Assembly: GCA_902728285.1 (NCBI GenBank)
Contig: CACVBU010000567.1
Coordinates: 372,001-436,000 of the forward strand
Source: Clytia hemisphaerica
Taxonomy: Eukaryota > Cnidaria > Hydrozoa > Leptothecata > Clytiidae
Direction: 5' to 3'
Length of the DNA: 64,000 nt
The first letter of the stretch is position 1, and each line of letters starts with the position of its first letter. Below the pieces are notes generated by a model. It was given only the letters and a program-made list of their open reading frames with translations. It ran no database searches and was not told where the DNA came from. This document shows positions 13,973 to 64,000 of the stretch, in pieces. Both the position numbers and the translations under genes were made by a program.

Positions 13973-13976
13973 TATA

Positions 13977-15316
13977 CAGTATATGGCCCCCAAAACGGAG
14001 GCGGCCCCCAAAACGGAGGTTTTCATTAAAATGAAGATTCTGACTTGTAGATTTATCAGAATTAAACGATTTTTGTTTATTTTGAAAGAATGGTGGTTAT
14101 ACTTAAAGATAAGCATGTTTTTGATGGTTTGAGACAGATTCAAAATAACATATTTGCGTATGAAGGAGATATTTTAACACCAAAATTAGATAAAAATTGC
14201 ATATAACTCACTCTAGCTCCTTGGATATTGAAAATAAGTTATAAAAACGGGGTATAGGAAACTTTCTACACCTAATGCCGTTCAGAAAATGCAAATACAT
14301 CTGTGACTTTAGAGGCTGGGTAAAAGATATAGGATCTTGAAGGTCAACCAGTATTTTGGAGCCCTAGAATCAGCATTGACAAAACCGAAAATTCTAAATA
14401 TGAGAAAAAGCAAAATATCTTGGAATTCTATTCCTATCACCTTGAGTTAATAGATTATATTATAGCCCTACAATACAACTGTCAATCATTTTTAAGAAAA
14501 CTGATTGGATGATTAATGTCACGTGGCCGGTCAATATTTCTCCATAGTGACCAGTTATGAAATTGACATCATTAAAATGTCAATTACTTTTATTACTTTA
14601 TTTTTGCAGGGCTATAAATGGATTGTTAACCTCAGAAGCCTGTCTCTCTTGTAAAATATCGACCTCGTTCGCTCGTATTGGACCTCGCTTCGCTCGTTCC
14701 AATACGTCGCGAACTCGGTCGATATTTTGCCAGAGAGACCAGCTTTTCGGTTAATAATCCATAAACAAAACATTAACATTGTATATAAAATTTTTCGCTG
14801 AATCTGCAAAAACGGCAAATTCTGTCATTTTTTTGCAAAATATAGGAGAAAAATATCTTTAAAGCTTAATATTTTCAGTTTCAGTCAAGCTTTTTTTCTA
14901 AAATTTTCACAGCTTATTCCATACATGAATGGAACTATTTTCAAAAGAGATTTGTTTTCAAAAACTTGATTAAGAAGTTGTTAAATCAAAATTGTCATTT
15001 TGAAAATTTCTAAATTTTCAGTTTGGACTTTGCAATATCGAAAATCTTGAAATATTTCATAAAAATCATAAATTTTACATCCATCAGGTCGAAAATTTAA
15101 GGGAAAACGATGGTTTTGGGGGCCATTAGAAAAAAGCTACCTATCTTTAAGCGATTGAAAAATATTGTTGAAATTGAAAATTTTGAAAAAGAACTTCCAG
15201 GAAATAAAGTAGAGATGTTAAAGGTTTTCATGCAGCAAAAATTTTTGTAAAATCTCTTTTCCTCTAGATTTGAGAAAAATTTAAAATTTGATCGCCGTTT
15301 TGGGGGCCACATACTG
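13977..15316. mobile_element. TA-flanked inverted-repeat element, copy 1 (CAGTATATGGCCCCC)
   Basis: Left end CAGTATATGGCCCCCAAAAC preceded by TA; right end CGTTTTGGGGGCCACATACTG. The terminal GGCCCCCAAAACGG block is repeated at the left. No ORF, so non-autonomous; TA flanks suggest a Tc1/mariner-type mobiliser. It matches 28967-30239 over most of its length, but it has the insertion 14461-14761 and lacks an internal segment present in copy 2. Confidence 0.85.
14461..14761. mobile_element. Two palindromic insertions nested in the 13977-15316 element
   Basis: Sequence absent from the sister copy. The first part runs from ATAGCCCTACAA to TTGCAGGGCTAT (about 14461-14617). The second, about 14618-14761, is a hairpin bounded by ATGGATTGTTAACC and GGTTAATAATCCAT with AAAATATCGACC...GGTCGATATTTT arms. 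Confidence 0.7.
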
Positions 15317-18851: not shown

Positions 18852-20679
18852 GTTTTTAGAATTTTGGGACCCTTATTGGGTCCCCCGAAATTTAGCCTTT
18901 ATAGGTACGCAATTTGGGATTTTTCCGTTTGTTGTAACTCTTAGGGCGGGGCTGATGTTAGACTTAATGATTTTTACGACCTCCGTTCCCTCCCCCAGGA
19001 AGGTTTTTTACCAGGTAATTTGTTTACGTATTTTATTTTATTACCTTCATACATGCGTTATCATTTTGATGAATTATATTTTGAAAAATACCATAGATTT
19101 AATGCCTTCCTGTTATTCGATTCTCAATATCCCGGGGGTGTGTGAGGGCTGCTATAAAAATATCACATAATCATTGATGGTCTTTTGGTGGATTGTTTTG
19201 AAAAATCGTGCTCACTTTTTGATTCTTCTTGTAATATCTTATACATATCTTATGTCTTGTCTTTATCGTCAACTTTAGTTGAGAATAGAATCTGAGAATG
19301 GCTGTATGTCACCTCAAAACTTTGGGGGCAGTCTAGAGACTTCAAAAATGGTCCGATTTGGCTGAAATTTTGCGCACTTGTTCCTCGGGTGAATATCTGG
19401 GGGTTTATTTTTCATTTTTTAAAAATCTGGATTTTTAGGGGCCACGATGGTCATGATTTTTTCGCCAAAACGAGGCTAAAAACTTTAAGGCAGGCTGCCT
19501 CCACGGGACTTCAAAAATGGTCAGATTTGGTTGAAATTGGTTACTTTTATCAATTTTACAATTGGGCCTACGAATGATTTTAAAACACGATTTCCATTTT
19601 TAACGTGTTTTCTACTTTGATTGATTTGTTCCGAAGTGGAAAGAAATATTATCTTCACACATCACCTTGCTTACTTTATTTTTACATTTGTCGTTATTTC
19701 CTCCTCCATCTTTTGTCACCTGTATCATGTTTATCAAGTATTCTTGTATTCAGGTCATTCAGGGTTATCATGTTTTGTGAGTTGTTTGTCGTGTTAAATC
19801 GCGATACTGCAGTGTGCTATGAAGGGATTTCCATCCATGATAGGTCAAAAACAGTAGCTCGTATTCGATAATTGTCATGATGATGTATCATATTTTTCTT
19901 GTTACATAGAATATACTTCTCAAAGTTACTACAGGCCCTACAGCTCGCAAATCAAGTTGCTGATGTTGGTGGTGATTTTTCTTTGCCCCTGCTTTTAAGA
20001 AAATACAATCCTTTGGAAACCTTGGAAAATAATCCCCGTGGGGATTTGAATAAATGAAAGCCTGCTAGAGGGGAATTTCTTAGGGGTTCGGGGCCACTTA
20101 TTTCCTCTACACAAGTTGCAAGGTCCTTGTGATTTTAATCACAAATGCTAGTTTGAAAACAACATTGACCGGCACAAAAAGAACAAGAAAAGCGCTAGAT
20201 ACAATCTATCATTCCAAAGTCATTACATTTCACTTGTCTGGGAAAAGTTTGACAATTCACCTGCTAGCTTTCGTCTATAACTCATCAAGTTGAACCATAG
20301 AAAGACCACCATGAACATTTCTCATTAGCATCAACTTATGAGATGAAGCAATCAGCTAATCATCAATAATCCTCTTTTAATCTATTTTTCTTTTCATGAA
20401 CTTTGCACTTTACACTAAGACGTCAGTTCTTTTAGCTAGTCTCTTTTAATCTTTTTAAATTTGATACCGCAGGATGGTTAAACTTTCTTTTCCCGAGAAA
20501 ACATTCCTGGCCTATTTCTGGGGCCTTTCCGCTGTTCTTTACTGCCTTAAGACTGACCCTCTACGAAAATTAAAGCTACATTTTGTTTTTCATAAGAATA
20601 AATTATATAAGAACATAAGGCTTCAATAGTTAAGAACATTTAAGGCTTTGGAGACTCCAAAACACCCGATTTCTTATTA
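18852..20679. other. Intergenic with a diverged direct repeat
   Basis: Two direct copies of an approximately 60-bp segment (ACTTCAAAAATGGTC...GATTTGG) lie at about 19338 and 19509. The stretch 20590-20679 is the left half of a MITE (TTAAGAACATTTAAGGCTTT) that the P-like transposon interrupts. No supported gene. Confidence 0.5.
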
Positions 20680-20904
20680 GGAAAACCATGGACATATAAA
20701 AAGAGTTGGACGCATCTCTTATTTTAAAATCCAAGAACCAGGCGCGTTTGCGCTCTATTGTTTCGGCACATCAAAAGAAAAAAAGAGGACGTGAGAAAAG
20801 ACGTCGAAAAAATAACGACAGCCTCGTTTAGTCAGACTTTTCCGTTTTTTCTCTTTTGATTTTTTTGAAGCGAGGCCTCGGAATCAAAACAAACTCAAAT
20901 AAAA

Positions 20905-22609
20905 ATGGCGGTCGCAAGCATGGAAGATAGAGAGAAAAATGAAATTAATCTGTTGTTGGAAAATATTGATGATGAAATAGAAGTAATTATTGAAGATCAC
21001 AATAAACTTATTGGTTTGAGTGCAGAAGAGTTGGAAGAAATATTTTCTGAAGAATTCGACCTTGAAGAAATACCATCCCTTCAAGATCATGAAGAAAACA
21101 AAACACCACCACAAACTACCACAACAGAAGTAGAGCCTGAGGCCCCAGTTACAAAGAAACACAAAACAAAATCACCTCCCAAGTTCGTTTGTGATAAATG
21201 TAAATTGAAGTATGTTCGACAATCTGCTTATGAGAAGCACTTATCAAAGTGTCTTTCTGAAGGAGTTTTGGTTATTGAAAAAGGTAAAGAATTATGCCTG
21301 CCCATGGATTCAGACTTTGCTATTTTTGTTATGTGTTATTCTTTTACTTTTTTGATTTTTTTTTCATGGTCCATGATATGATTTTTGCTTGCCTTGCCTT
21401 GCCTGCACTCACTGTTTTGTTTGTAATTTGTACGTACTTTTATAGAAAATTGTTACAATTTAAAATGATAAACCAAAAAATATACTGAACTGTAATTCCC
21501 ATTCGCAGATCTGAGTAAGGAAAAACTTTTTTCTTTATTTCTCAGAACTATTGTCCAACGTATTAATGGAAGAGTACAATAAGGAAGGACCAACCATGCT
21601 GACCAAAAGTTTTGAAATGGTGAAGGGCAATAAAGTCTTCATGATTCAAAGGGAAAGCAGAGAGACTCTTGGAAACAAAGCTCTAAAACTTGCTACAACC
21701 ATCCTCACAAAAAAGGAAACCACCGACTTCAAAGATTTTGCCTCAATGTTGTCCAAATTTTGTATAGGACTCCTCCAACTGAAGACCAACAAAGCTGCTG
21801 CGCGTGAAACCATCAGTACTACACTTCACCGTACCTGCAAAAATGAAAGTTTTAAAAATGCAATGTCAAAACTGGCAGTGAATGTTGACGAGGAGGTTTC
21901 ACTGTTTTTGTTGAACAACATTTTTAAGAGTTTTTTCCAGCTTTCCTTGACTTGGAGGAATGATAAGTTATTAACGCGGAATTTTAATGAAATTGATGTC
22001 AAGTTGTCATCACAAGAGCAGAAAACTCTGCGGTATGTTGCTGGTTTCATACCATTTTCCCTCTCAAAAAGATTTAAAAATAGACAAGACACTGATATGG
22101 GAAAAGTTGTCGTGGAAACTATTGAAACGTGGCGTGCTAATCCCAATGAAAATAAAAAATCTTTTTTGGAATTTTCAAAATCCTGGACCGAAAGGGTAAA
22201 CCGTGGTGGATTATTCCAAGTTAATGATGATTTTTATATATTTATTCGGAGAGTTGAAAATATGGCAAGGACTGTCCTGAATAGCAATTTAATCCTAAAC
22301 TATAAAGGAGAAGATTTGAGAGAGGTGTTACTTGAGAAGCTCAATCAAAACGAATTGGTGGATTTAGGCTGGATAGCATTGACTAAGTCTATACAATGTG
22401 ATGGAATGAAAAAAGCTCTCAAGAACATTATTTTGAGAAAGTGGGTTTCACTCAGAGCCAAGTCATTTCTAAACTGCTGGATCCGAATGTTAAAGAGGAA
22501 AAAACAAAATATTTCAGAAAAGAGTGAGCCCTCTATGAGAAAGTCTTTACATGGAAAAGGGAAAAGTGGTGATAAATCTGAACAGGATAAGGCAGAAAGT
22601 AACAAGTGA
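20905..22609 (+). CDS. Transposon-encoded zinc-finger accessory protein, about 480 aa
   Basis: Exons 20905-21283 and 21546-22609 join in phase (G|AA) at GT-AG sites, giving 481 codons with the stop. The first ATG lies 200 bp inside the left terminal repeat in context AAAATGGCG. The N-terminal 70 residues are acidic (EELEEIFSEEFDLEEI), then a proline/threonine linker, then one C2H2 finger (FVCDKCKLKYVRQSAYEKHL) near residues 90-115. Exon 2 is a long, probably helical region with QKTLRYVAGFIPFSL and RVNRGGLFQVNDDFY, motifs I associate with proteins accompanying P-like transposases in marine invertebrates, and ends in a basic tail. Function unknown; a DNA-binding cofactor or regulator of transposition is an inference. 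It lies convergent to the transposase. Confidence 0.78.
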
Positions 22610-22613
22610 TACT

Positions 22614-22657
22614 TTTATGGACCTACCTGGTCCAACCCACCGGGGTAGGTCCATAAA
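22614..22657. repeat. 14-bp perfect stem just after the accessory-gene stop
   Basis: TTTATGGACCTACC (22614-22627) pairs perfectly with GGTAGGTCCATAAA (22644-22657) around a 16-base loop, four bases after the stop codon. The GGACCTACC end matches the larger element at 6216-7784, so it may be a minimal insertion of that family rather than a functional 3' hairpin. Confidence 0.75.
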
Positions 22658-22919
22658 CTAATTTTTTGAATTTATTTTGAATCAAATATTTACCACTTTA
22701 TTAATATTTTTGTCAAATGATTTTACTTCTGATAGATATCTAACCAAGGTCGAGAAAAAATGATAAAGAAGAAAGAGTAAACATTATGTCAATTATTTTA
22801 ACCACTTTACAACCGTATGCACTCCTCAGAGTTGTTTACCCCCTTCAAATGAAAGATTTTGATACCTCAAATTTTCAATTTTAATTTAGTATATGGCACA
22901 ATTTTCAGGGTAGGCCAAT

Positions 22920-23280
22920 AGACGATTTTGGGTGTCTGGTCTAGTCTAATTGCTGGCATTTCGAGTGGATTTTTAAGCCTAAATTACATTCAAATTCAAG
23001 TGATGGAAGATTATATAAAAGACCTCTCTGTGACCCACTAGGATCCGCCTTATTAGCCAACCCCAGTGAAAAAATCGCCCTATAGGGGAAATTGGTCACC
23101 TCAGTGGAAAATGGGAGTTTCTCTTTCACACCAGTGATGAGCAACCCCAGTGGAAGAATGATGAAAGAACGATAGAATCTTATGACCCCATTGGCAAAAT
23201 ATAACCGTTTGACCCACCCCAGCGGGTTTGAAAATTTTGAATTTAGCCCCACTCAGCTTTGAAACCACTGGGGTACAGAT
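22920..23280. repeat. Cluster of CCCCAGTGG motifs inside the transposon
   Basis: ACCCCAGTG(G/A) or close variants recur every 30-50 bp between about 23030 and 23275. They resemble the interior of the MITE at 17590-17876 in inverse orientation. It lies between the two convergent genes and is probably an older insertion in the element. Confidence 0.45.
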
Positions 23281-23487
23281 ATTGATGGTATAATAAGAGG
23301 AAAAAGAAGTTATGTGATTTGTAATATGTAATATTATTGTTCAGTTGACAAAAATTCATAAACAAAATTATATCAATCAGTAAAGAACAGACAAAAAATT
23401 ATTTAGCTGCTATGACAGTTTCGCTTATCATCAGGATTAAAAATTCTAAAATGTTTATAAACTTCGATTGTTTGTACTGAGTGGTTT

Positions 23488-26400
23488 TTAAGAAGGTTTT
23501 GTCTTCTTTTTGGGGGGAAGTGACATATCGTTAACGTCGATGATTTTCTGCTCGTTATGTTTACCCCGACTGTTCCCTTCAGGTCGAACCAATAAATCGC
23601 CAGCAACTCCGATTGCGAGAGCATTAAAATTAAACTGACTAAGCGTTGGATTCTCATTACATCCGAGTCGCATTCTCTGCTTCCCAAAATATTCCTCAAG
23701 TGGATCCTGACTTAATTTCTCTGATAGAATATATTTGGCACCTTCGTTGAACATCACTTTTGATACTTCGATGAATGAACGAACTATAATCAAAATACAA
23801 AAATGACATGTATTCAAAACAAATTCTTAACACCCGTGAGGGTTACTCTTTAGGTAAAATTCGGAAAAAGGTATAAGTTTTTGTATCTGAAAGGGTACAA
23901 TTATTTCAAAACTCAAGCGTTGGTCGTCAAGGTCTGGGTCCTGGGTTCAAACATCAGACTAAGGCTATCATGTCCATGAGCTTATTATTAGCTCTTGGAA
24001 GATTTTTCATCTATTGGTTAAGATATTGCGATTTCGTTATACAATTTTCTAAATTAAATTGAGTTTGCAATAGAATTTACCTGTTATTCGAAGTCCTTCC
24101 AGTGTTTGGTGACTGAGACATAATTTTGATTGTTCAATTTTCGTCAAATTTGGGATGCTGTAGCAGTGCGCCTCCCAATCATTAAGGTACTTCAAAAATG
24201 TTGTGACCAACCACTGTAGAAAGAATAAGTAAAAAATATGTTCGATTATTGTCAGAAGTTTACCATGAACCTAAAAAAATATCTCCTTTACATAGTGACC
24301 CCTTGTTTTTTCTACAGAAAACTGCTACGGGGGGGGGCAAAGTGCTTCTCAAGGAGGGGGAACTACAGGATTTTTTTTCTTCGGGGGGGATGGATTTAAA
24401 AAAGAATGATAAGAAAACATGAGCCAAAGTTAATACTTACCCCAAAGCGTTCGTCGTCTGCTCCCCTGTACTTGTGCTTATCTAGGTTGTTAGATTTTTC
24501 ATCAGACTTGGAGACGTTTAAACAATCGAAGAATCTGTTCATGTGGGAAATAAATGTCCTCAAAGATTTTGTGGTATGGAGATCCTGCTCATCCAACATG
24601 TTGACTACAGTAGCACTGAGAACCTAAAAAAAATGTACATAATCTGTGTAATTTTTAATGGCTAATTAATACAAATGCATTTACATACACTCTTTTTATA
24701 CGAACAGTTTTATAAGAACAATGAGCCAATGGCCAAATAATTACACATTCTAGTCTTTAGGCTTGTTCTTGAACTGTTTTTAATTCTTGTCAGAAATGTC
24801 AAAATAAAATCAGACTAAAGCTAAAATTGACTAAAACACTTCTAGAATAGGAAATAAATAATTTGAGGCTTACAGTGCAAAAAAAAGTTAAAGAAATTGG
24901 AGCCTCTGAAAATCAAATTTCATGTTTTTTATACAAAATAATATGCATAAAATTCAATGGTAAAAGTAACATTAAAATAACATCATTCAAATCAATTTTT
25001 ATCAAATAATTTTTAAGAGATGAAAAGCTAAAAAATCAATCTTGATTCACTTACTTGCACTGCTAAGTAAACTCTCATGCGTGATCTCGGATTCAAATTG
25101 ATATGCTCCTCAGTCAAATGGTGACCCATTGTCAGACCAATGGCATCTCTCTCCATCCCTAAATCCCATTCATAAAGATTTATTATTTGACCCCAGGATA
25201 AACTTTGACCATCACACTAAAAACAGAAAAAAAAAAAGTTAAGTTATTGAAATGAGTTTTAAAATATCACAACAACATAGAAGTCTCCTCTTTGATTGTG
25301 GTAATTAGTTTATATTGAATTACATACCATTAGATTTCTAGAAGTAGACTTTGAGCTTGACTTCTCCAAGTTGTTTCTGGTGGTTTTCATCAGATGGGGA
25401 GGATCACATATGAAATACAATTTTCGAGCTGCAATGAAAAGTAAACCATTAAAAACCAAGAAAATATGAAGTATCACTCTATTCTTCATTACCTTTTTAA
25501 TGACTGTGTTATGGCTGGCGGCATATACCTTAATAATTTTACATTTTACAGATTTTTGGCCTTTAGTTGATATTTGTGGACAAGATAGACACAATAATAT
25601 TGTGGGATACAGAGCAAAAATAATATAATTAAAAAAATACTTGGGCAACATTCATTCCATGTCCAATAGATAACATTTTCTGGACTAAAGTTTTCTTTCG
25701 TTTCCCAATTATGGAGTTTGAAAAACTTTCGGTTTGTTGAGGCACCATCGGCAACTATGGCCAACACCTTCAAATCAATGGACTCCAATAAACTGATACC
25801 CTCCCAAATAACATGGTACAGCTGACTGCTTGTCATTCCAGAGCTGGAAGCAAAGTGTCCAAAGACATAAAATAAGTTTGAAGAAATTCCTCTGACCATG
25901 AGTGCTGTGGCATAGCTAGCAAGTTCCCTGTCGGTACTGTCAAGGGGGCGTTGGTTTTCAGACTCCTCTTCACTGTATTTAAGCTCAAATTCGGACAGAA
26001 GATCATTTATAGACCCTTCTTCACACAAACCAACAATTTTCCCAGTAGAGGTGCTGAAACAAAGCCCACTCTTGATCTTCATTTCATCAACAACCAAGGA
26101 AACAAAACTTTGATGAGGTTTTTCAAGGGCGTCAAATTGTCTGGCAATATTTGCAATAGTGTCAGGATTGAAACCACACCCAGGATCAGTATAGTTAATG
26201 TATTTTAGTAAGGTGTTCTTTGATGGCAGATTCAAAAATTGCTGTAATTGTCCTTTGTATGTCCCTGGACTTTTAAGGTAGATCCCAATACACCATCTTA
26301 TAATCAAAGGGTGCCACCTCATACCTCGTTTGTCTTTTAATGCAGCATATTTTTTTTGTTGCTCCCATAATAAGTGTTGTGGACTGTCCTCACCAAATGG

Positions 26401-27471
26401 ATTTTCTTTGTCCTCAACTGTCTGTTTTAAAATATCATATTGCTCTCCATCTAAGGTGACACCGTCTTCCATAACACATCTTTTTATCCTATCATCCATC
26501 CTCCTTATCTTTGACTTTAATGCCTTTCTTTCAGTTTCATACTTTTGCAGTTTTTCTCTTAACTGCTGCACATTGAGGTATCGGTCATTGGTGTATTCAC
26601 TAACCTCTCCTGTGCTGTTTCGTTTTCGCGACTGCATTGCATGTAAAGCTGCTCTATAACTATTACATATGTCACATCTCTCCCGTTCATTTGCTATTAA
26701 AACTGTGCAATTTGAATGCCTTATGGTAGTTAAGTCTGTCAAAGAATCTCCGCTATAAGATTCAATTCGACCAGTCACAATTCCATCATTGGATTCAAAA
26801 TTCCTAGCATCACAAATTTTTGATTCAATCAGGGTAGGAAAATCATAATTCCCACAACAAAGTGGTTTAGAAAATAGTTCAAATACCAACTTAAGTTGTA
26901 CCAAATTGTCGATCGTTGAAGGTAGCAAAACATCATCTATCAAAAAAGGAGATGATACATAACGATTTAGTGCATGAAATTTCCAGGTTTTCTCATTAAC
27001 ATCAATAATGAGGGTTTTAATACAAATAGCCTTTCCTAGACGATCAATATCGGTAATATGCATCTCATTTTCAATCTCAAGTGTAGTATATCCTTTTAGA
27101 TGTTTTATCTCCTCTTTGAGATTGAACAGTTTTGGTCTCTTGATTCCTGGTCCTCGCTTTGAAGCTAAAGTGCATACATAACATTCTTCACTGTGTGGTC
27201 TGAACTCAAAAAAACTGTCACCATGTGATGTAAGTTCATCGGGTGGAATGTCTAAATTTTTATTTTTTAAGCGGTATAACTTCATGTGACAACGTTTGCA
27301 TAACACTTTTGAAAAAATTGATTCATTTTCCTCGGTGACATTCAATTTAAAAACCTGTTTAATAATGGCAGAATACTCCATAACTGATTTGGGGTTTTTG
27401 TAATCTTTTTGATGACTTTTCAAACCACACATTCTGCAGATTAGTTTTAGGTTTTTAATATGACCTTCCAT
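23488..27471 (-). CDS. P-element-like transposase, about 901 aa, six exons
   Basis: Exons on the minus strand: 27471-25641, 25428-25328, 25216-25055, 24623-24441, 24213-24081 and 23783-23488. All have GT-AG sites and matching phases, 2706 nt in total. N-terminus: C12, C15, C58 and C61 (ICRMCGL ... VLCKRCHMKLYRL) form a ZAD-like zinc module where P transposases usually have a THAP domain; CYVC (97-100) and CDIC follow, then a coiled coil. The catalytic core is P-type: WHPLIIRWCIGIY, VVDEMKIKSGL (D about 462), VADGAST (D about 575), CDPPHLMKTTRNN (about 618), HINLNPRSRMRVYLAVQVLS, LEGLRIT and QDPLEEYFGKQRMR (E about 833), then NENPTLSQFN. It ends in a basic PPKKKTK, a possible nuclear signal. 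It should cut and paste the surrounding element in the nucleus. Confidence 0.93.
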
Positions 27472-27499
27472 GACTCAATAACATTAACTCAATAAACAA

Positions 27500-27945
27500 A
27501 ATCAGCAGGGGTATCGGTATCGTAAAATCAAATTGGTTGGCAGAAAGGAAAGTCTAAAGTCCAGTCAAAATTCAGCAGTGGTATCGGTATCGTAAAATCA
27601 AATCGGTTGGCAGAAAGGAAAGTCTAAAGTCCAGTCAAAATTCAGCAGTGGTATCGGTATCGTAAAATCAAATCGGTTGGCAGAAAGGAAAGTCTAAAGT
27701 CCAGTCAAATTTCAGCAGGGGTATCGGTATCGTAAAATCAAATCGGTTGGCAGAAAGAAAAGTCCAAAGTCCAGTCAAAATTCAGCAGGGGTATAGGTAT
27801 CGTAAAATCAAATCGGTTGGCAGAAAGAAAAGTCCAAAGTCCAGTCAAAATTCAGCAGGGGTATCGGTATCGTAAAATCAAATCGGTTGGCAGAAAGGAA
27901 AGTCCAAAAAGTCCAGTCAAAATTCAGCAGGGCTATCAGTTTATG
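27500..27945. repeat. 70-bp tandem array upstream of the transposase
   Basis: Six near-identical units of 70 bp, starting GTATCGGTATCGTAAAATC at 27511, 27581, 27651, 27721, 27791 and 27861, plus a decayed seventh. It lies between the transposase start codon (27471) and the right terminal repeat, where a promoter or transposase-binding array would be expected. That role is inference. Confidence 0.9.
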
Positions 27946-28719
27946 TTATGTCTTTATTTATTTCAATATTTATATTCTAGAAAGAACTGTGAGAATTGAA
28001 GAATTAATACTCATTATGAAGAAAAACAAAAACCTTTACCTGGTCTGGGTTGTTGATATTGACATTAATTCCACCATGTTAAAAGAACAAAAATTTCTTT
28101 CCGTACCACACAAAATCAGTGGAAATTTCACATTTAAACATAACAGAAACACCTTTCTTATTTCCAAATAAGTTTTCAATTTTTCGGAAGATCTAAATCG
28201 AGGCAAAATTTGAGAAAAATAACGGCAGAAAAACAAGAAATTCATCATATAAAACCCCATAGTGTAGGCCATAACCTAAAAGTGTACTGGAGTGTAAGGT
28301 ACCAGAAGAAAGAGCAATCCTTACACTACAGTCCCACAATTTCATCTTCCCCTATGAATTTCATCCAACTCCATAATTAACATTTGAAAAATAGAGGTTA
28401 ACAGTTAGAAAATTTAACACAATTTTCAGTAATCTTTCATCCATCATAACTTCTGACTGCAGCCTCCATTTTCCACCATTTTTGCTCTCCTTGAAAGCCG
28501 TGTTTATCTTCTCACGAATTTTAAAAACTTTGATTGGTTGGAAATGATGTAATCCATAGAAAATAAAAGTTTTCAAGGTCAAGTTAAACGAGTAAAAATG
28601 TCGGAGTTTCGACGGATCTGCTCGCCACACATGTCGGAAAAATATCAGTGTTTGGCGGAAACGCGCCTCGCTTCAAAGAATTAAAAGTTTCTATTTATTC
28701 GCAAATAAATAGACATAAA
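27946..28719. other. Non-coding right arm of the P-like transposon
   Basis: AT-rich sequence with the subterminal inverted repeats near 28655-28680 but no supported gene. An open frame at 27887-28171 overlaps the tandem array and is not called. Confidence 0.5.
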
Positions 28720-28752
28720 CGTCCAACTCTTTTTATATGTCCATGGGAAAAC

Positions 28753-28872
28753 AGACACAAAATGGTGAAAATAAGAACATGTTAAGAACATTTTAGGCTT
28801 AAATCTCAAAAAGTCAAGAACACCCGAAGATTTCAAATTTTTTGGATGTTTTTATAAAAAAACGTGTACTTT
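28753..28872. repeat. Right half of the MITE interrupted by the P-like transposon
   Basis: AAATGGTGAAAATAAGAAC, TTAGGCTTAAATCTC and GATGTTTTTATAAAAAAAC match parts of the uninterrupted relative at 47120-47391. The left half lies at about 20590-20679. Confidence 0.55.
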
Positions 28873-28966
28873 AGTACCCACCCAGAGTGTCGGTTTGTTA
28901 TCAAGTTGTAAATGGAATGTTTAGCTGTGAATGAGAATAATTAGATTAATACGGGGTTACCAAATA

Positions 28967-30239
28967 CAGTATATGGCCCCCAAAACGGAGGCGGCCCCCA
29001 AAACGGAGGTTTTCATTAAAATTAAGATTCTGACTTGTAGATTTATCAGAATTAAACGATTTTTGTTTATTTGAAAGAATGATGGTTATACTTAGAAATG
29101 AGCATTTTTTTGCTGGTTTTGCTGGTTCAGATTCAAAATAACATATTTGCGTCTAAAGGAAATATTTTAACACCAAAATTAGACAAAAATTGCATATAAC
29201 TCACTCTAGCTCCTTGGATATTGAAAATAAGTTATGAAAACGGGGTTTAGGAAACTTTCTACACTTAATGCCGTTCAGAAAATGCAAATACATCTGTGAC
29301 TTTAGAGGCTGGGTAAAAGATATAGCATCTTGAAGGTCAACCAGTATTTTGGAGCCCTAGAATCAGCATTGACAAAACCGAAAATTCTAAATATGAGAAA
29401 AAGCAAAAAGTCTTGGAATTCTATTCCTATCACCTTGAGTTAGTAGTTTATAACAAAAAATTAACATTATATATAAAATTTTTCGCTGAATCAGCAAAAA
29501 CGGCAAATTCCGCTGTCATTTTTTTGCAAAATATAGGAGAAAAATATCTTTAAAGCTTAATATTTTCAGTTTCAGTTATGCTTTTTTTCTAAAATTTTCA
29601 CAACTTATTCCATACATGAATGGAACTATTTTCAAAAGAGATTTGTTTTCAAAAACTTGATTAAGACGTTGTTAAATCAAAATTGTCATTTTGAAAATTT
29701 CTAAATTTTCAGTTTGGACTTTGCGATATCGAAAATTTTGAAATATTTCATAAAAATCATAAATTTTACATCCATCGGGTCGTAAATTTAAGGGTAAACA
29801 CAAATATGTTCATAGTTTTCCCCCCTATTACAACTGGGCTTGATATTTTGATTTTAACTACACCTCCGTTTTGGGGGCCCCAAACCTGCATTTTGACAAC
29901 CAGGGGTATACTGTAAAAATTTTATCAAATAAATTTATGCCCAGAACCCTCTAAATCATATTTCAAAACTATGGTCAAAATTTTGTATTCATATCTTAAA
30001 GATATCTTGAGAAATCGCCAAAATTTCAAACCTCCGTTTTGGGGGCCATTAGAAAAAAGCTACCTATTTTTAAGCGATTGAAAAATATTGTTGAAATTGA
30101 AAATTTTGAAAAAGAACTTCCAGGAAATAAAGTAGAGATGTTAAAGGTTTTCATGCAGCAAATATTTTTGTAAAATCTCTTTTCCTCTAGATTTGAGAGA
30201 AATTTCAAATTTGATCGCCGTTTTGGGGGCCACATACTG
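28967..30239. mobile_element. TA-flanked inverted-repeat element, copy 2 (CAGTATATGGCCCCC)
   Basis: 1273 bp with CAGTATATGGCCCCCAAAAC at the left and CGTTTTGGGGGCCACATACTG at the right, flanked by TA on both sides (28965-28966 and 30240-30241). Near-identical to much of 13977-15316. It also has an extra internal segment with CCTCCGTTTTGGGGGCC blocks at about 29865 and 30030. Non-coding. Confidence 0.87.
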
Positions 30240-45200: not shown

Positions 45201-48071
45201 TTTTCCGCTCAAATACACAATTGAGTATATCAGAAATAAGTAATAGTTATCGGACAGTTGCGAGTACAATATGAGAAATATTTTACGAGTTCCGAGATAT
45301 TTTCGTACAATACTTTTCGAGCCTTTAGGCGAGGAAAATATACGGAAAATCCGGAACGAGTGAAATATTTCCATATTGTACGAGCAAATGTCTGATAACT
45401 GGTTTATCGGTGACCCAAAAAATGCACTTTTGTGTTAGAAAAAAGCGCAGGGCACTTTTGTAGTGCAAAGTGACGTTAGATTGCTTCTACCGCTACAATG
45501 CAACAACATCTTTTCGTCAATTTATATCTTTACATGTAAAATACAAGATATATTGTACTCTTTTTAACCAATCAGATTGCAGATATTTTTTGGATCGCCG
45601 ATAATGGATGTTAAAGTTAGTTAACAACTGGTGCTCAAACTGAAATGTTACGTCCCCTTAAGTCTAGGGAAGGAAGAAGTGGTCCCAAGGATCTCTGTTC
45701 GACTGCCAATAAAGTTTGCAAGCGACTTAACTCAACTCAACTTTTTTTCTTTCTCAGCAAGATCAATTGTCCCATTTGTAACCGTTCCCTTGAAGACATG
45801 TCTGGATATTGGGCATTATTGGATAAGGAAATTTCGGAAACGCCCATGCCACTCATATACCAAAATTACAAAGTGAACGTGAGTTTCGGCCTTCTTTTTT
45901 CCGTATTCTGCATGTCTATAATATGAAAATTAATCACTAAGCTCTAGTTTAGACGGCCGACTTTCTGCCCTGCCTATTCTAATTGTTAGAGTAGGCAGAA
46001 AAGTGGGTGCAAAGTTGGTAGTTAAAATCTTTGCTTGAAGAAGGTTGAAAGAAGACATGGCATTGACTTCAAAAGAGGGCTATACATTGACTTTAGACAG
46101 CCCACTTTATGCCCACTTTAATTTACAATTAGAATAGGCAGGGCAAAAAGTGGGCCGTCTAAACTAGAGCTAATCTTTGAAAGTGTATAGTCAAATGTGA
46201 CATTGCACGGGGGGGGGGTTATTTGACTTGCATAGTATTGCAGTGGTCATAGCAAAGTTTGAAAACCTGGTCTTTAGAGAGAAGCTAGAAATTATTATAA
46301 TTGCCCGGGAATATTTGTTTTGTAAAGTATTTTTCCAGTAAACGAAGTTCTAAAGGTAAGACCTAGGAAAAGCTAATTCAAAATATGTCTGTTTGTTCAT
46401 GGTTTCGAACCTCCATAGAATTTTTTAGTCTTCCATACACTTACTTTGTCGGTTATATTAACGGCTTTGTTTCTTTTTAGGTCTTATGTCGAGACTGCAG
46501 AGAGGTATTTATATTACATTCTCAAATGAATTATTCCAGTACTACAATATTCATCTATCGTTGCATTATAGATTATAATGCTCGGCCAATAGAATGCCTC
46601 ATTTTCATTTGTTTTTGTTTTTTTTTCACCCGGTTGTCGTCGCTCCTCGGGTCTCAGTGTATAAATGGTGTGGTGGTAACTCTGTTATAAGAATATAATC
46701 TGATTAATTTTCGCGAGATATAATTTCATGAGCCAAAAAATCGGGAAATTTTCTTAGGCGAAAAGATTTGTTGAAAGTAGGCTGTAAACGTCATAAGTAA
46801 CTCATTTACAGTGTTTTTCAGTCTTTCGTTCCATGAGAATTTCGCGATTCTGCGATCTCAGGCCGCGCTTTCGCGATTTTATTTTTACGAAAATGACAAA
46901 GATTTGCGAAAACGCGAAGTTAAATCTAGTGAAAATTTATCCGATTAAAGTATCAGCTTCAAAGCGTATTTTCCTTATATTCCACTTGTTCTTTTGTTTC
47001 AGGAGAGTTTGACTGCTTTCCACGTGGTCGGTTTGAAGTGTTTGAAATGTGGAGGTTACAACACCACCAGGATAGGAGGTTCGTGATTCATTATTCTTGT
47101 CACCATTCGCGTCTTACACTTTTTTTATAAGAACATCCAAAATTTTTGAGGCCTTGGGATATTCTTAACTTTTTGAGTTTAAAAGGTTTCATTTTTAAGC
47201 CTAAAAACGTTCTTATTTCACCATTTTCACCAGAGTCCGCAAAGCCTTTAATGTTTTTAACTGGTTCGTAATATTTTGGAAATCGAAGCTTTATGTTCTT
47301 ATATAGTTTGTTCGTATAAAAAATAAAGAGCATCTTAAGAACACTTTCAGGCTTTAAGGTTTCAAAAATTTTGGACGTTCTTATAAAAAAAGCCTAGGAT
47401 AAGTTCTCAGCATTAGGTGAAAAAGTTTTGTCGTTTGAAAAACCTGATCGGCCCTTTTTACGATGGCCCTTATCGACGTTATTTTTCGTCACTGGCGTAA
47501 TAAGGGCCGGCTTAAGGAATCGGAATCGGAATTAAATCAGGGCCGGTCTAGCCAGTACCTTCCCAAAAATGCGATAAAAAATGTTCGTCTAACAGGCTAG
47601 GGCCTTGTTAAAAAATTAAGAAATTAGGCTTTGGTGTTATAAGAGCTGGCGTAAAAGAGGCCGGCGCTAAGTTAGGACCGGTGTATAAAGGTATTTGACA
47701 TTTGTGTACTCTGTTTTGTAGGAGATGAACCTCTACCAGAAGACCCTCTCGAAACATTACAAGAAACGGTGCGCGCTATCAACCTCCGACATCAAAACGA
47801 AGAAGGGGGAGCGGGAGAGGATGATGAGTTTGATGAAGGATCATGGGAAACAGTCACCGATGAAGAAGAAGAAGCTGGGGAGAGTGAAGAGAGTGAAAAC
47901 GAGGCTGGTGGTGATAACGAAAGTGAAAGTATGAGAACTGAAAATGAGACTTTGGAAATGGAGCATGATAATAATGGTGGAGGATGTGAAAATACAGACA
48001 CTGTTGCTATTGAAGAGGCGGATACAAGTAATGCGGGCTCTGAGGACATTAATCATCAGATGAATTCTTGA
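42222..48071 (+). CDS. RCHY1: RING finger and CHY zinc-finger ubiquitin ligase (RCHY1/PIRH2)
   Basis: Nine exons: 42222-42395, 43203-43321, 43903-43981, 44654-44698, 45033-45121, 45758-45878, 46481-46504, 47003-47078 and 47722-48071. All phases agree, 1077 nt, 358 aa. CHY zinc finger, residues about 8-80: CQHYQRKC, CCNKEYGCRICHD, CLQC, CEECGILFGRYTC; CTCHY part: FHCEGCGICRVGG, FYHCDICNMCI. The C3H2C3 RING spans exons 4-6 (NCPVCLE, HTSRKVLHIPQCSHVLHYEC, CPICNRSLEDM). The C-terminal zinc ribbon is LCRDCRE and LKCLKCGGYNTTR. This E3 ligase ubiquitinates p53 and other targets in vertebrates. After the family's usual end, exon 9 adds about 115 residues, strongly acidic (SWETVTDEEEEAGESEESEN), so the protein is about 100 aa longer than human PIRH2 (261 aa). 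Confidence 0.95.
42472..42729. mobile_element. C-rich inverted-repeat element in RCHY1 intron 1, copy 1
   Basis: Inverted ends ATATGGGGGTGGAGGATAT and ATATCCTCCACCCCCATAT. The interior has several CCCCxGGACAxxxxAAATTxxCCCCC units. Copy 2 lies at 59288-59571. Confidence 0.78.
43017..43140. mobile_element. Palindromic MITE in RCHY1 intron 1
   Basis: ATTTTGTTAGGTTACGTAA at the left and TTACGTAACATAACAAAAT at the right form an approximately 124-bp hairpin. Non-coding. Confidence 0.75.
43388..43755. mobile_element. Inverted-repeat element filling RCHY1 intron 2
   Basis: Left end GGCGTACAAACTTTCGCTGG and right end, inverted, GTGAAAGTTTGTACGCC, with TTTA/TAAA flanks. The motif GCGAAAxTT recurs throughout the 368 bp. 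Non-coding. Confidence 0.77.
44081..44217. mobile_element. Palindromic MITE in RCHY1 intron 3
   Basis: TTCTTTAGAGATTGGAATAA at the left and TTATTCCAAACTCTAAAGAA at the right. The inner arms are TCACTGATTGAAA and TTTCAATCAGTGA. Confidence 0.75.
44334..44406 (-). tRNA. Degenerate tRNA-like sequence (tRNA pseudogene or SINE head)
   Basis: Minus strand: GGAGCGATGGCCAAGAGG contains an A box (TGGCCAAGAGG), and AGTTCGAATTC is a B-box match about 40 bases later. Size and D-arm resemble a Leu/Ser-type tRNA, but the T-stem and acceptor stem do not pair cleanly. It lies within RCHY1 intron 3, antisense to the gene. A tRNA-derived SINE is the likeliest explanation. Confidence 0.45.
45246..45402. mobile_element. 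Palindromic MITE in RCHY1 intron 5
   Basis: TCGGACAGTTGCGAGTACAA at the left pairs with TTGTACGAGCAAATGTCTGA at the right. Inner arms AAATATTTTACGAGTTCCG and CGGAACGAGTGAAATATTT. 157 bp, non-coding. Confidence 0.75.
45941..46170. mobile_element. MITE with TAA target duplication in RCHY1 intron 6 (Harbinger-like)
   Basis: Ends GCTCTAGTTTAGACGGCC and GGCCGTCTAAACTAGAGC, flanked by TAA on both sides (45938-45940 and 46171-46173). The terminal repeat extends past CTGCCCTGCCTATTCTAATT. Same family as 11798-11883 and the decayed 8672-8930 copy. Confidence 0.87.
47120..47391. mobile_element. MITE in RCHY1 intron 8 (TTATAAGAACATCC ends)
   Basis: Left TTTTTTATAAGAACATCCAA and right, inverted, GGACGTTCTTATAAAAAA. 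The interior repeats the AAGAACxTTTxAGGCTT motif. The P-like transposon at 20687-28745 is inserted in another member of this family. Confidence 0.72.
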
Positions 48072-48396: not shown

Positions 48397-48706
48397 TACT
48401 TTTTCGCTTAGATAAAAGTCAATTTTCTCGCTTAGATAAACTCACTTTTTTCGCTTAGATAAACTCACTTTTTTCGCTTAGATAAAAGTCAATTTTTCTC
48501 GCTTAGATAAAATCACTTTTTTCGCTTAGATAAACTCACTTTTTTCGCTTAGATAAAATAATTTTTTTCGTTTAGATAAAAGTCAATTTTCTCGCTTAGA
48601 TAAACTCACTTTTCTCGCTTAGATAAACTCACTTTTTTCGCTTAGATAAACTCACTTTTTTCGCTTAGATAAAGTCACTTTTTTCGCTTAGATAAACTAA
48701 TTAAAT
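48397..48706. repeat. Left array of the 23-bp CTTAGATAAA motif
   Basis: About 13 head-to-tail units of CGCTTAGATAAA(C/A)TCACTTTTTT with variants. The same motif in inverse orientation builds the array at 56190-57225; a short second block lies at 50526-50630. Confidence 0.93.
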
Positions 48707-48837: not shown

Positions 48838-50222
48838 TCTTTTGTTGCTACTTGGTACTTTATAAGATTGAAGGCAATATACCTATCGGTAATTAGTTCT
48901 TACAAAGTAAACAAAGTATGGCGAAAAAGATGAGCATATTTCTTTTTATTATAAGCATCTACTTTATAAGAATCAAATCAATAACTCTTGATTGAAGGCA
49001 ATGTATCTTTCGGTAATTAGTTATTAGAAAGTAAACAAAGGATGGCGAAAAAGATGAGCATATTTATCTTTATTATAAGCATTTTCTTTATAAGAATCAA
49101 ATCAATAACTCTTGATTGAAGGTAATGTATCTTTCGGTAATTAGTTATTAGAAAGTAAACAAAGGATGGCGAAAAAGATGAGCATATTTATCTTTATTAT
49201 AAGCATTTTCTTTATAAGAATCAAATCAATAACTCTTGATTGAAGGTAATGTATCTTTCGGTAATTAGTTATTAGAAAGTAAACAAAGGATGGCGAAAAA
49301 GATGAGCATATTTATCTTTATTATAAGCATTTTCTTTATAAGAATCAAATCAATAACTCTTGATTGAAGGCAATGTATCTTTTGGTAATTAGTTATTACA
49401 AAGTAAACAAAGGATGGCAAAAAAGATGAGCATATTTATCGTTATTATAAGCATTTTCTTTATAAGAATCAAATCAATAACTCTTGATTGAAGGCAATAT
49501 ATCTTTCGGTAATTAGTTATTAGAAAGTAAACAAAGGATGGCGAAAAAGATGAGCATATTTATCTTTATTATAAGCATTTTCTTTATAAGAATCAAATCA
49601 ATAACTCTTGATTGAAGGCAATGTATCTTTCGGTAATTAGTTATTAGAAAGTAAACAAAGGATGGCGAAAAAGATGAGCATATTTATCTTTATTATAAGC
49701 ATTTTCTTTATAAGAATCAAATCAATAACTCTTGATTGAAGGCAATGTATCTTTTGGTAATTAGTTATTACAAAGTAAACAAAGGATGGCAAAAAAGATG
49801 AGCATATTTATCGTTATTATAAGCATTTTCTTTATAAGAATCAAATCAATAACTCTTGATTGAAGGCAATATATCTTTCGGTAATTAGTTATTAGAAAGT
49901 AAACAAAGGATAGCGAAAAAAATGAGCATATTTATTTTTATTATATGCATCTACTTTATAAGAATCAAATCAATAACTCTTGATTGAGAAAGCAATATGC
50001 CTTTCGGTAATTAGTTATTAGAAAGTAAACAAAGGATGGCGAAAAACGAGCATATTTATTTTTATTGTAAGCATCTACTTTATAAGAATCAAATCACTAA
50101 CTCTTGATTGAAGGCAATATATCTTTCTGTAATTAGTTCTTACAAAGTAAACAAAGTATGGCGAAAAAGATGAGCATATTTATTTTTATTATAAGTGTCT
50201 ACTTTATAAGAATCAAATCAAT
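48838..50222. repeat. 124-bp satellite array inside the fold-back element
   Basis: About 11 units with period 124 bp. TGATTGAAGGCAATGTATCT recurs at 48991, 49115, 49239, 49363 and so on. The central units are nearly identical, while the first and last two are more diverged, typical of unequal exchange. Each unit holds AAAGTAAACAAAGGATGGCG. An open frame at 50277-50474, just after it, has no recognisable product. Confidence 0.93.
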
Positions 50223-50639
50223 TTCAGAATTTTCGGCGTTTTCACTGTGATAATATGTGAGCGATAACTTCTCTTTTTGAGATGTGAGCGACCGTCTATC
50301 CCATGTCATCTCAAAAGTAAAGTTGAAGCCAAGCTTTCTTCCTCCGACTTATATTTTATCGATAAAACGAATTTAAAATCTACACATGCGTTATTTTGCT
50401 TACTTAGGGATATTTCGAAAGGAAGCTCTGCGGGGTATTCTTACTGGCAACTACTTGCTAGTATATGCCAATAATGACCTTCATTTTCAAGGAAATATTT
50501 AAAGTCGCAATTTTGCGATTGTTGTTTTTTTCGCTTAGATAAAAGTCAATTTTCTTGCTTAGATAAACTCAATTTTTTTCGCTTAGATAAAAGTCAACTT
50601 TCTCGCTTTGATAAACTCACTTTTCCTACAAACTCGCGT

Positions 50640-56189: not shown

Positions 56190-57225
56190 AGCGAAAAAAA
56201 ACAGTGCGAAAAATGTGAGTTTATTAAAGCGATGAAATAGTCAGTTTATCTAAGCGAAAAAAGTGAGTTTATCAAAGCGAAAAAAATAAGTTTATCTAAG
56301 CGAAAAAAATGAGTTTATTTTAGCGAAAAAAAAAGAGTTTATCTAAGCGAAAAAAATGATTTTATCTAAGCGAAAAAATGTGAATCTATCAAAGCGAAAA
56401 AAAGTTATTATCTAAGCGAAAAAAATGAGTTTATCTAAGCGAAAAAATGTAAATCTATCAAAGCGAAAAAAAGTTATTATCTAAGCGAAAAAAATGAGTT
56501 TATCTAAGCGAAAAAAAAGAGTTTATCTAAGCGAAAAAAGTGAGTTTATCTAAGCGAAAAAAGTGAGTTTATCTAAGCGAAAAAAGTAAGTTTATCTAAG
56601 CGAGAAAAGTGAGTTTATCTAAGCGAGAAAATTGACTTTCATCTAAGCGAAAAAAAATATTTTATCTAAGCGAAAAAAGTGAGGTTATCCAAGCGAAAAA
56701 AGTGACTTTATCTAAGCGAGAAAAGTGAGTTTATCTAAGCGAGAAAATTGACTTTCATCTAAGCGAAAAAAAAAATTTTATCTAAGCGAAAAAAGTGAGG
56801 TTATCTAAGCGAAAAAAAGTGAGTTTATCTAAGCGAAAAAAGTGAGTTTATCTAAGCGAAAAAATTGACTTTCATCTAAGCGAAAAAAAATATTTTATCT
56901 AAGCGAAAAAAGTGAGGTTATCCAAGCGAAAAAAGTGAGTTTATCTAAGCGAGAAAAGTGAGTTTATCTAAGCGAGAAAATTGACTTTCATCTAAGCGAA
57001 AAAGAATATTTTATCTAAGCGAAAAAAGTGAGGTTATCTAAGCGAAAAAAAGTGAGTTTATCTAAGCGAAAAAAGTGAGTTTATCTAAGCGAGAAAATTG
57101 ACTTTTATCTAAGCGAAAAAAATTAGTTTATCCAAGCGAAAAAAGTGAGTTTATCCAAGCGGAAAAAGTGAGTTTATCTAAGCGAGAAAATTGACTTTTA
57201 TCTAAGCGAAAAAGTATTCCATTAC
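56190..57225. repeat. Right array of the 23-bp motif (inverted)
   Basis: About 45 units of GTGAGTTTATCTAAGCGAAAAA with variants (GAAAATTGACTTTCATCTAAGC, AAAGTGAGGTTATCC). Higher-order blocks of several units repeat, for example 56640-56760 and 56890-57010. Runs into the right terminal repeat. Confidence 0.93.
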
Positions 57226-63018: not shown

Positions 63019-64000
63019 ATAGACCAGCGGCCGAGGCAGTGGATTGTGTCACTTCGTAGGGCACCCCTTAGATCAGGGCAAATTTTTGATATTATGCTCC
63101 TAATAGGGTGTAGAATTGACAAAAAAAATTTGCCCTTCGAATCTCCTGCAGTTTTCGAGTGAATCGATTTTTAGTTAATCGATAGAACTTATCAAGGGTC
63201 CCCCCTTTACTAACGGTTTTTTCGAAGTCTGAAAATCAAATATCTGAGAATACCAACGGATTCAGCGTGAAAAGTAGATAAAGAAAATGGGGTTATTTGT
63301 TAAGTTTCGACCACCTGGTGCCGAGAAATGGCATTTTTAAGTCGAAAAATCGACGTTTTTGGCGTTTTCCGATGACGTCAGCATTTTCCTATGAGCATTT
63401 TCAGAAAAAATCATTCCCACAACTGGATAGCCCTGAATTAGTAGTATCCAAAAATGGTATGGTTTGTCAACTTTCAATGTATAGATCTCGAGATAATTCA
63501 TTTTTAAGGTGGATAAATATGCTGAAAAACTGCTGACTCAGCAAAAAATATCGATAATTTTCAATATTTAAACTAAAATATCTCGAGATCTAGACATCGA
63601 AAGTTAACAAACCATACCATTTTTGGATACTACTAATTCAGGGCTATCCAGTTGTGGGAATGATTTTTTCTGAAAATGCTCATAGGAAAATGCTGACGTC
63701 ATCGGAAAACGCCAAAAACGTCGATTTTTCGACTTAAAAATGCCATTTCTCGGCACCAGGTGGTCGAAACTTAACAAATAACCCCATTTTCTTTATCTAC
63801 TTTTCACGCTGAATCCGCTGGTATTCTCAGATATTTGATTTTCAGACTTCGAAAAAACCGTTAGTAAAGGGGGGACCCTTGATAAGTTCTATCGATTAAC
63901 TAAAAATCGATTCACTCGAAAACTGCAGGAGATTCGAAGGGCAAATTTTTTTTGTCAATTCTTCACCCTATTAGGAGCATAATATCAAAAATTTGCCCTG
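63019..64000. mobile_element. Fold-back element, copy 2 (right end cut by window edge)
   Basis: Starts TAGACCAGCGGCCGAGG and follows 9299-10341 closely through both arms. The window ends about 60-90 bp before the expected right end. It begins only a few bases after the element ending at 63011. An open frame at 63297-63536 is an accident of the palindrome. Confidence 0.9.

Follow-up and report, generated by a model that had tools for sequence, protein, structure and literature searches.

An Intact Element of Clytia hemisphaerica Points to a Two-Gene Lineage of P-Superfamily Transposons With a RAG1-Type N-Terminus

The stretch of DNA analyzed here (the window) comprises 64,000 nucleotides of contig CACVBU010000567.1 (positions 372,001 to 436,000) of the hydrozoan Clytia hemisphaerica and harbors an 8-kb element at positions 20687–28745. 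It is likely that this element is an intact cut-and-paste transposon of the P superfamily and that it belongs to a two-gene lineage encoding a transposase with a RAG1-type N-terminus together with an accessory protein. The transposases of the fly P element and THAP9 carry a THAP domain. The presence of a RAG1-type domain in its place, and the probability that the second gene is no captured passenger, were overlooked in the initial annotation, which was made from the sequence alone and had regarded the spliced, six-exon transposase as the unusual part. The six exons were found, but splicing is known from the fly P element too (PMC7776569), and the unusual features of the Clytia element are its RAG1-type N-terminal domain and its second gene.

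The Element Carries Two Spliced Convergent Genes

The region 20687–28745 is a complete DNA transposon with intact coding capacity and two spliced, convergent genes, as judged from its ends, duplication, and open frames. Its terminal inverted repeats (TIRs) of 26 bp, located at 20687–20712 on the plus strand (CATGGACATATAAAAAGAGTTGGACG) and at 28720–28745 on the minus strand, were identical at 26/26 bases, and these two ends were the only TIR matches in the window when up to five substitutions were allowed. The 7-bp target-site duplication GGAAAAC is present at both flanks, 20680–20686 and 28746–28752, as the initial annotation had described. The subterminal inverted repeats it had reported were borne out by a 13-bp pair, TTTGAAGCGAGGC, positioned at 20864–20876 (plus strand, 151 bp inside the left TIR) and 28665–28677 (minus strand, 42 bp inside the right TIR); this length was reached by none of 300 single-base shuffles, the best of which gave 12 bp. 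A second pair, AGGCGCGTTT at 20740–20749 and 28659–28668, was at chance level, with at least 10 bp obtained in 19 of 300 shuffles. The perfect TIRs, the duplication, and the open frames are consistent with a young insertion.

The transposase gene, on the minus strand, was modeled with six exons encoding 901 amino acids, every join being in phase. Exon 1 (25641–27471) contains, in a single open frame, the RAG1-type zinc domain (residues 1–125), an RWD-like region, a cysteine cluster, and the N-terminal part of the RNase H domain with D462 and D575. Exon 2 (25328–25428) carries the ICDPPHLMKTTRNN motif, exon 3 (25055–25216) the GTP-binding insertion domain, and exon 4 (24441–24623) the end of that domain (PF21788, residues 622–738). 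These are followed by exon 5 (24081–24213), which agrees with the deposited protein P0028, and by exon 6 (23488–23783), with the catalytic E833 and the TNP-like RNase H C region. Gene 2, on the plus strand and convergent with the transposase gene, comprises two exons and encodes 480 amino acids. A probable C2H2 zinc finger (zf-C2H2, E = 0.023, below the cut-off) lies in its exon 1 (20905–21283), and a conserved, predicted all-helical domain with the motifs LRYVAGF and RGGL in exon 2 (21546–22609).

Two deposited proteins matched these models. P0001 (C. hemisphaerica, NCBI/UniRef) was identical to the gene 2 model, exon 1 included, over 480/480 amino acids and probably derives from annotation of the same locus. 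P0028 (EukProt, TCONS_00058509-protein), the name of which resembles a transcript-assembly identifier, was identical to residues 384–901 of the transposase (518/518 amino acids) across all five introns; as it begins within exon 1, the start codon of the transposase is not covered by it. The two convergent genes with exons joined in phase, as described earlier, were confirmed by the models and supported by both proteins, whereas the models contain six introns (five in the transposase gene and one in gene 2) instead of the seven proposed.

The Transposase Has a P-Type Catalytic Core

Comparison with the P-type Pfam models PF21787, PF21788, and PF21789 showed matches to TNP-like RNaseH_N (5e-21), GBD (3.5e-9), and RNaseH_C (7.8e-7), all of which exceeded the curated cut-offs. 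When the whole transposase was compared with the sequences of the Protein Data Bank (PDB) at E ≤ 1, the fly P transposase was the sole match (E = 1.3e-5). In the fly P alignments, D462 falls on residue 230, D575 on 303, and E833 on 531 (counted by hand), and D230, D303, and E531 are presumably the catalytic residues of the fly enzyme. The RNase H domain with its GTP-binding insertion, the three acidic residues, the TIRs with a duplication in the 7–8 bp range, and the subterminal repeats are all features of the P superfamily, and the earlier assignment to this superfamily is upheld by the three Pfam domains and the retained D-D-E residues. The helix-turn-helix domain PF12017 was matched by three of the 15 members of the transposase alignment A2 and not by the window protein.

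Of 7924 candidates in the search with the transposase, 23 proteins, one of them P0028, matched at E ≤ 0.001. The named relatives are from Hydra vulgaris, the crinoid Anneissia japonica, and Clytia itself. Three additional Clytia transposase proteins of the same clade, all diverged (P0031, P0038, and P0042) are present in the databases.

The N-Terminal Zinc Domain Is Related to That of RAG1

By sequence comparison, residues 1–125 of the transposase are homologous to the N-terminal (ZAD-like) zinc domain of RAG1, and among PDB sequences the closest sequence relative of this ZAD-like domain is RAG1. PF12560 (RAG1 importin binding) exceeded its cut-off in the window transposase. Among 10 transposase relatives scanned singly, seven were above the cut-off, one was below it, and two had no match; in alignment A2, PF12560 was matched at E ≤ 1 by 9/15 members. 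A 12-sequence profile compared with PDB sequences gave as top matches RAG1 (21wb_A, 4.8e-10), fly P (4.4e-9), and full-length RAG1 chains (1.6e-8), and in the alignment with RAG1 the CRxCG pair is retained, as are the CxxC in the middle and the H..CxxC at the end. The N-terminal profile of 12 rows scored RAG1 at 51.7 bits, and at 51.9 bits without the window row. The maximum was 13.1 bits in 5000 shuffles and 20.5 bits in 500 shuffles with cysteine and histidine held fixed.

The predicted structure of the transposase (mean pLDDT 81) placed residues 7–79 near ZAD folds, with modest Z. The likeness to RAG1 could be shared ZAD-likeness only, an ordinary ZAD having been acquired independently. This is unlikely, as the same profile ranked RAG1 far above the next match after RAG1 and fly P, the ZAD of fly M1BP (4.8e-10 versus 0.011), and the RAG1 match does not stop with the ZAD part but takes in one more H..C..C cluster, at residues 93–100, that RAG1 has as well. 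The RAG1 match is confined to the N-terminal part; a catalytic core of the RAG1/Transib type was not found, the core fitting the P-type models, and the duplication is of 7 bp, not the 5 bp of RAG/Transib. Exon 1 holds the N-terminal domain together with the beginning of the catalytic domain in a single uninterrupted frame, and hence their fusion is independent of splicing. Behind the zinc domain, residues ∼115–200 were predicted to adopt an RWD-like fold (modest Z), and after this region a conserved second cysteine cluster is formed by C205, C255, C266, and C269 (residues 205–269).

Gene 2 and the Transposase Gene Appear to Be a Conserved Pair

The search with gene 2, in which the 7998 candidates sharing most words were scored, yielded 27 proteins including the deposited copy, the 26 others falling at E ≤ 1 and the weakest of them at 2.7e-11. 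An alignment of 26 proteins, from which P0006 was omitted as a second form of P0005, was invariant or nearly so around LRYVAGF and RGGL. Pfam gave nothing past the weak C2H2 finger below the cut-off, for the window protein or in the 25 of 28 families listed for 26 members. No match to PDB sequences was found up to E = 10, nor any similarity to the transposases of its own family. Structural modeling predicted an all-helical protein with middling confidence (pLDDT 74, pTM 0.47).

The longest contig is of 24711 bases for both P0007 (gene 2) and P0046 (transposase), and of 38053 bases for both P0021 (gene 2) and P0041 (transposase). The members of each pair presumably lie on the same contigs, which suggests that gene 2 and the transposase gene are a conserved pair. 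The initial annotation had correctly counted two genes in the element and inferred the second to be co-mobilized; as relatives of both genes twice agree exactly in the length of the longest contig, gene 2 is probably more than a passenger.

Some transposons do carry captured, anti-silencing, or repressor genes, and gene 2 could likewise be a captured host gene or an anti-silencing or repressor protein dispensable for transposition. A gene 2 relative, P0026, is present in Branchiostoma, and no Branchiostoma occurs among the 23 transposase matches (in rows bearing organism names). The two pairs of distant relatives with longest contigs of equal length and the conservation of residues across the 26 aligned proteins make this explanation rather doubtful. 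Alternatively, gene 2 might have begun as the C-terminal domain of an ancestral P transposase and have split off to become a subunit of its own. Its LRYVAGFIPFS resembles a motif that we take to belong to THAP9-like C-termini. Moreover, the window transposase stops 68 residues past E833, whereas fly P has an extra acidic C-terminal domain (PMC7776569). Gene 2 is, however, unlike its own family's transposases in sequence, and no Pfam family for such a C-terminal domain is among the 25 of 28 families listed for its 26 members, which is a weak test; a split-off origin has, in our estimate, a small chance of being correct. A dedicated accessory protein is the role preferred here for gene 2.

Proposed Mode of Action and Its Assessment

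In the proposed mechanism, the zinc domain would take the place that the THAP domain has in fly P and THAP9, and would recognize sites at the element ends. The RNase H core (D462, D575, and E833) would then cut and join the DNA with GTP as a cofactor, leaving the 7-bp duplication. Gene 2, with its C2H2 finger and conserved helical domain, may be a dedicated partner that is required for transposition or regulates it, by analogy with RAG2-like proteins, KolX, and the second proteins of Harbinger, which are thought to act so in their own elements.

Several observations weigh against an intact transposon of a two-gene lineage with a RAG1-type N-terminus. The partner role of gene 2 is one that we infer, and the structural model of the protein gave no convincing fold match. 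The longest contig of the Hydra gene 2 protein P0005 (52822050) is none of the three that are given for Hydra transposases in four rows, although a row names a single contig. The window protein alone matched RAG1 weakly (E = 0.15), so that a profile was required, and 6/15 members of alignment A2 had no PF12560 match, at least two of them since the fragment has no N-terminus. A search of the protein collection with the N-terminal region gave no matches and missed even known relatives, and is hence uninformative. No THAP domain was present among the nine Pfam families listed for the window transposase up to E = 10, a range in which HMMER filters drop most very weak matches. Finally, the element is known here from a single locus, as would also be expected of a degenerate, single, immobile relic. 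Perfect TIRs with a duplication, open frames, retained catalytic residues, and a deposited protein with a transcript-assembly-like name (P0028) all argue against such a relic, which is very unlikely, and an intact two-gene transposon remains the best explanation of the locus.

Comparison With Known Elements

We know of no second gene in Galileo, a P-superfamily element of Drosophila. Galileo resembles the Clytia element in its 7-bp duplication, reported for most copies (PMC4168063), and differs in its own TIRs, described as long and internally repeated. The Clytia element shares with fly P and THAP9 (Pdre2 in zebrafish) the RNase H domain with the GTP-binding insertion, the D-D-E residues, the subterminal inverted repeats, and a short duplication, of 7 bp in Clytia and 8 bp in those elements. 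Its TIR begins with CATG, like that of fly P. The TIR of Pdre2 is reported to begin with CAT (PMC10983969). The Clytia element differs from both in its RAG1-type zinc domain with no THAP domain found, in being without the long C-terminal domain, and in its second convergent gene; it is also larger than fly P (8 kb versus 2.9 kb; PMC7776569).

With RAG1 and the RAG-like (Transib) elements, the Clytia element has in common the N-terminal zinc domain, homologous by sequence, and the two convergent genes per element reported for RAG-like elements (PMC7204232). It differs from them in its P-type core, which is not a Transib core, and in its duplication (7 bp versus 5 bp; PMC8355894). Also, its gene 2 product is predicted to be helical and not kelch-like. 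Harbinger, of another superfamily, carries a transposase and a different second protein. A transposase with an accessory gene is similarly reported for Kolobok with KolX, which is of another superfamily and has another accessory protein (PMC9587614). N-RAG-TP of Aplysia (Panchin and Moroz 2008) is likewise mobile and encodes a protein resembling the N-terminus of RAG1, but it is reported to comprise nothing other than that part (PMC8355894).

Surrounding Repeats and Other Features of the Window

The element sits within a host repeat, and both flanks (20577–20686 and 28753–28872) carry motifs such as TAAGAACAT and AAGGCTT. A diverged copy of the host repeat on the minus strand, at ∼47115–47327, is collinear with both flanks and is without the 8-kb element. 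The flanks aligned to this copy with a score of 165, the best of 500 shuffles being 68; under stricter scoring the right flank alone aligned (86 versus 38). The copy is also without ∼30 bases at the joint, so that the precise empty site cannot be read from it. Another host repeat is present at 13974–15316 and 28964–30239, its two copies aligning in three pieces at 94–98% identity, and the latter copy begins ∼220 bp to the right of the element.

Within the element, a 70-bp tandem repeat of 6.3 copies (27497–27937) lies between the start codon of the transposase and the right end. Elsewhere in the window, a segment of ∼970 bp at 9341–10342 matches its own reverse complement at 94% and has a second copy at the window end (63019–64000); it looks like a repeat of the palindromic or foldback type. 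A unit of ∼23 bp (TTTTTCGCTTAGATAAACTCACT and variants) is arrayed on both strands at 48400–48698, 50525–50624, and 56206–57213, and a tandem array with a 124-bp unit (10.9 copies) occupies 48866–50222.

Implications for the Origin of the RAG1 N-Terminus

The published sources proposed for the RAG1 N-terminal domain include a Chapaev-like ancestor. The N-terminal region of RAG1 is also thought to be derived from the Aplysia N-RAG-TP (PMC8355894). In a 2015 analysis, the RING and Chapa domains, the latter being the N-terminal portion common to RAG1 and its transposon relatives, are stated to occur in no known transposable elements outside their own group (PMC4411706). RAG1 residues 87–217 are reported to bind DNA and two zinc ions (PMC3124419), and from these two reports the Chapa domain would correspond to the stretch matched here (PF12560, RAG1 ∼101–246). 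Among the titles and beginnings of abstracts listed by full-text searches, in a collection without most subscription journals, no paper was recognized as describing an accessory protein in a P-superfamily lineage. Both Pfam labels, RAG1-type and P-type, already stand on some of the relatives in protein databases, where the pairing is visible.

As an intact jellyfish element, the transposon could serve as a gene-transfer tool. The presence of a RAG1-type domain and a P-type transposase in one frame in Clytia, Hydra, and further proteins makes it a new and testable candidate source of the RAG1 N-terminus. We tentatively raise the possibility, which falls well short of being probable, that the RAG1 N-terminal zinc domain was exchanged with, or derived from, one of the two-gene P-superfamily transposons to which the Clytia element belongs, N-RAG-TP being perhaps a truncated member of the lineage. 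If this is true, RAG1 would combine parts of two distinct transposase superfamilies.

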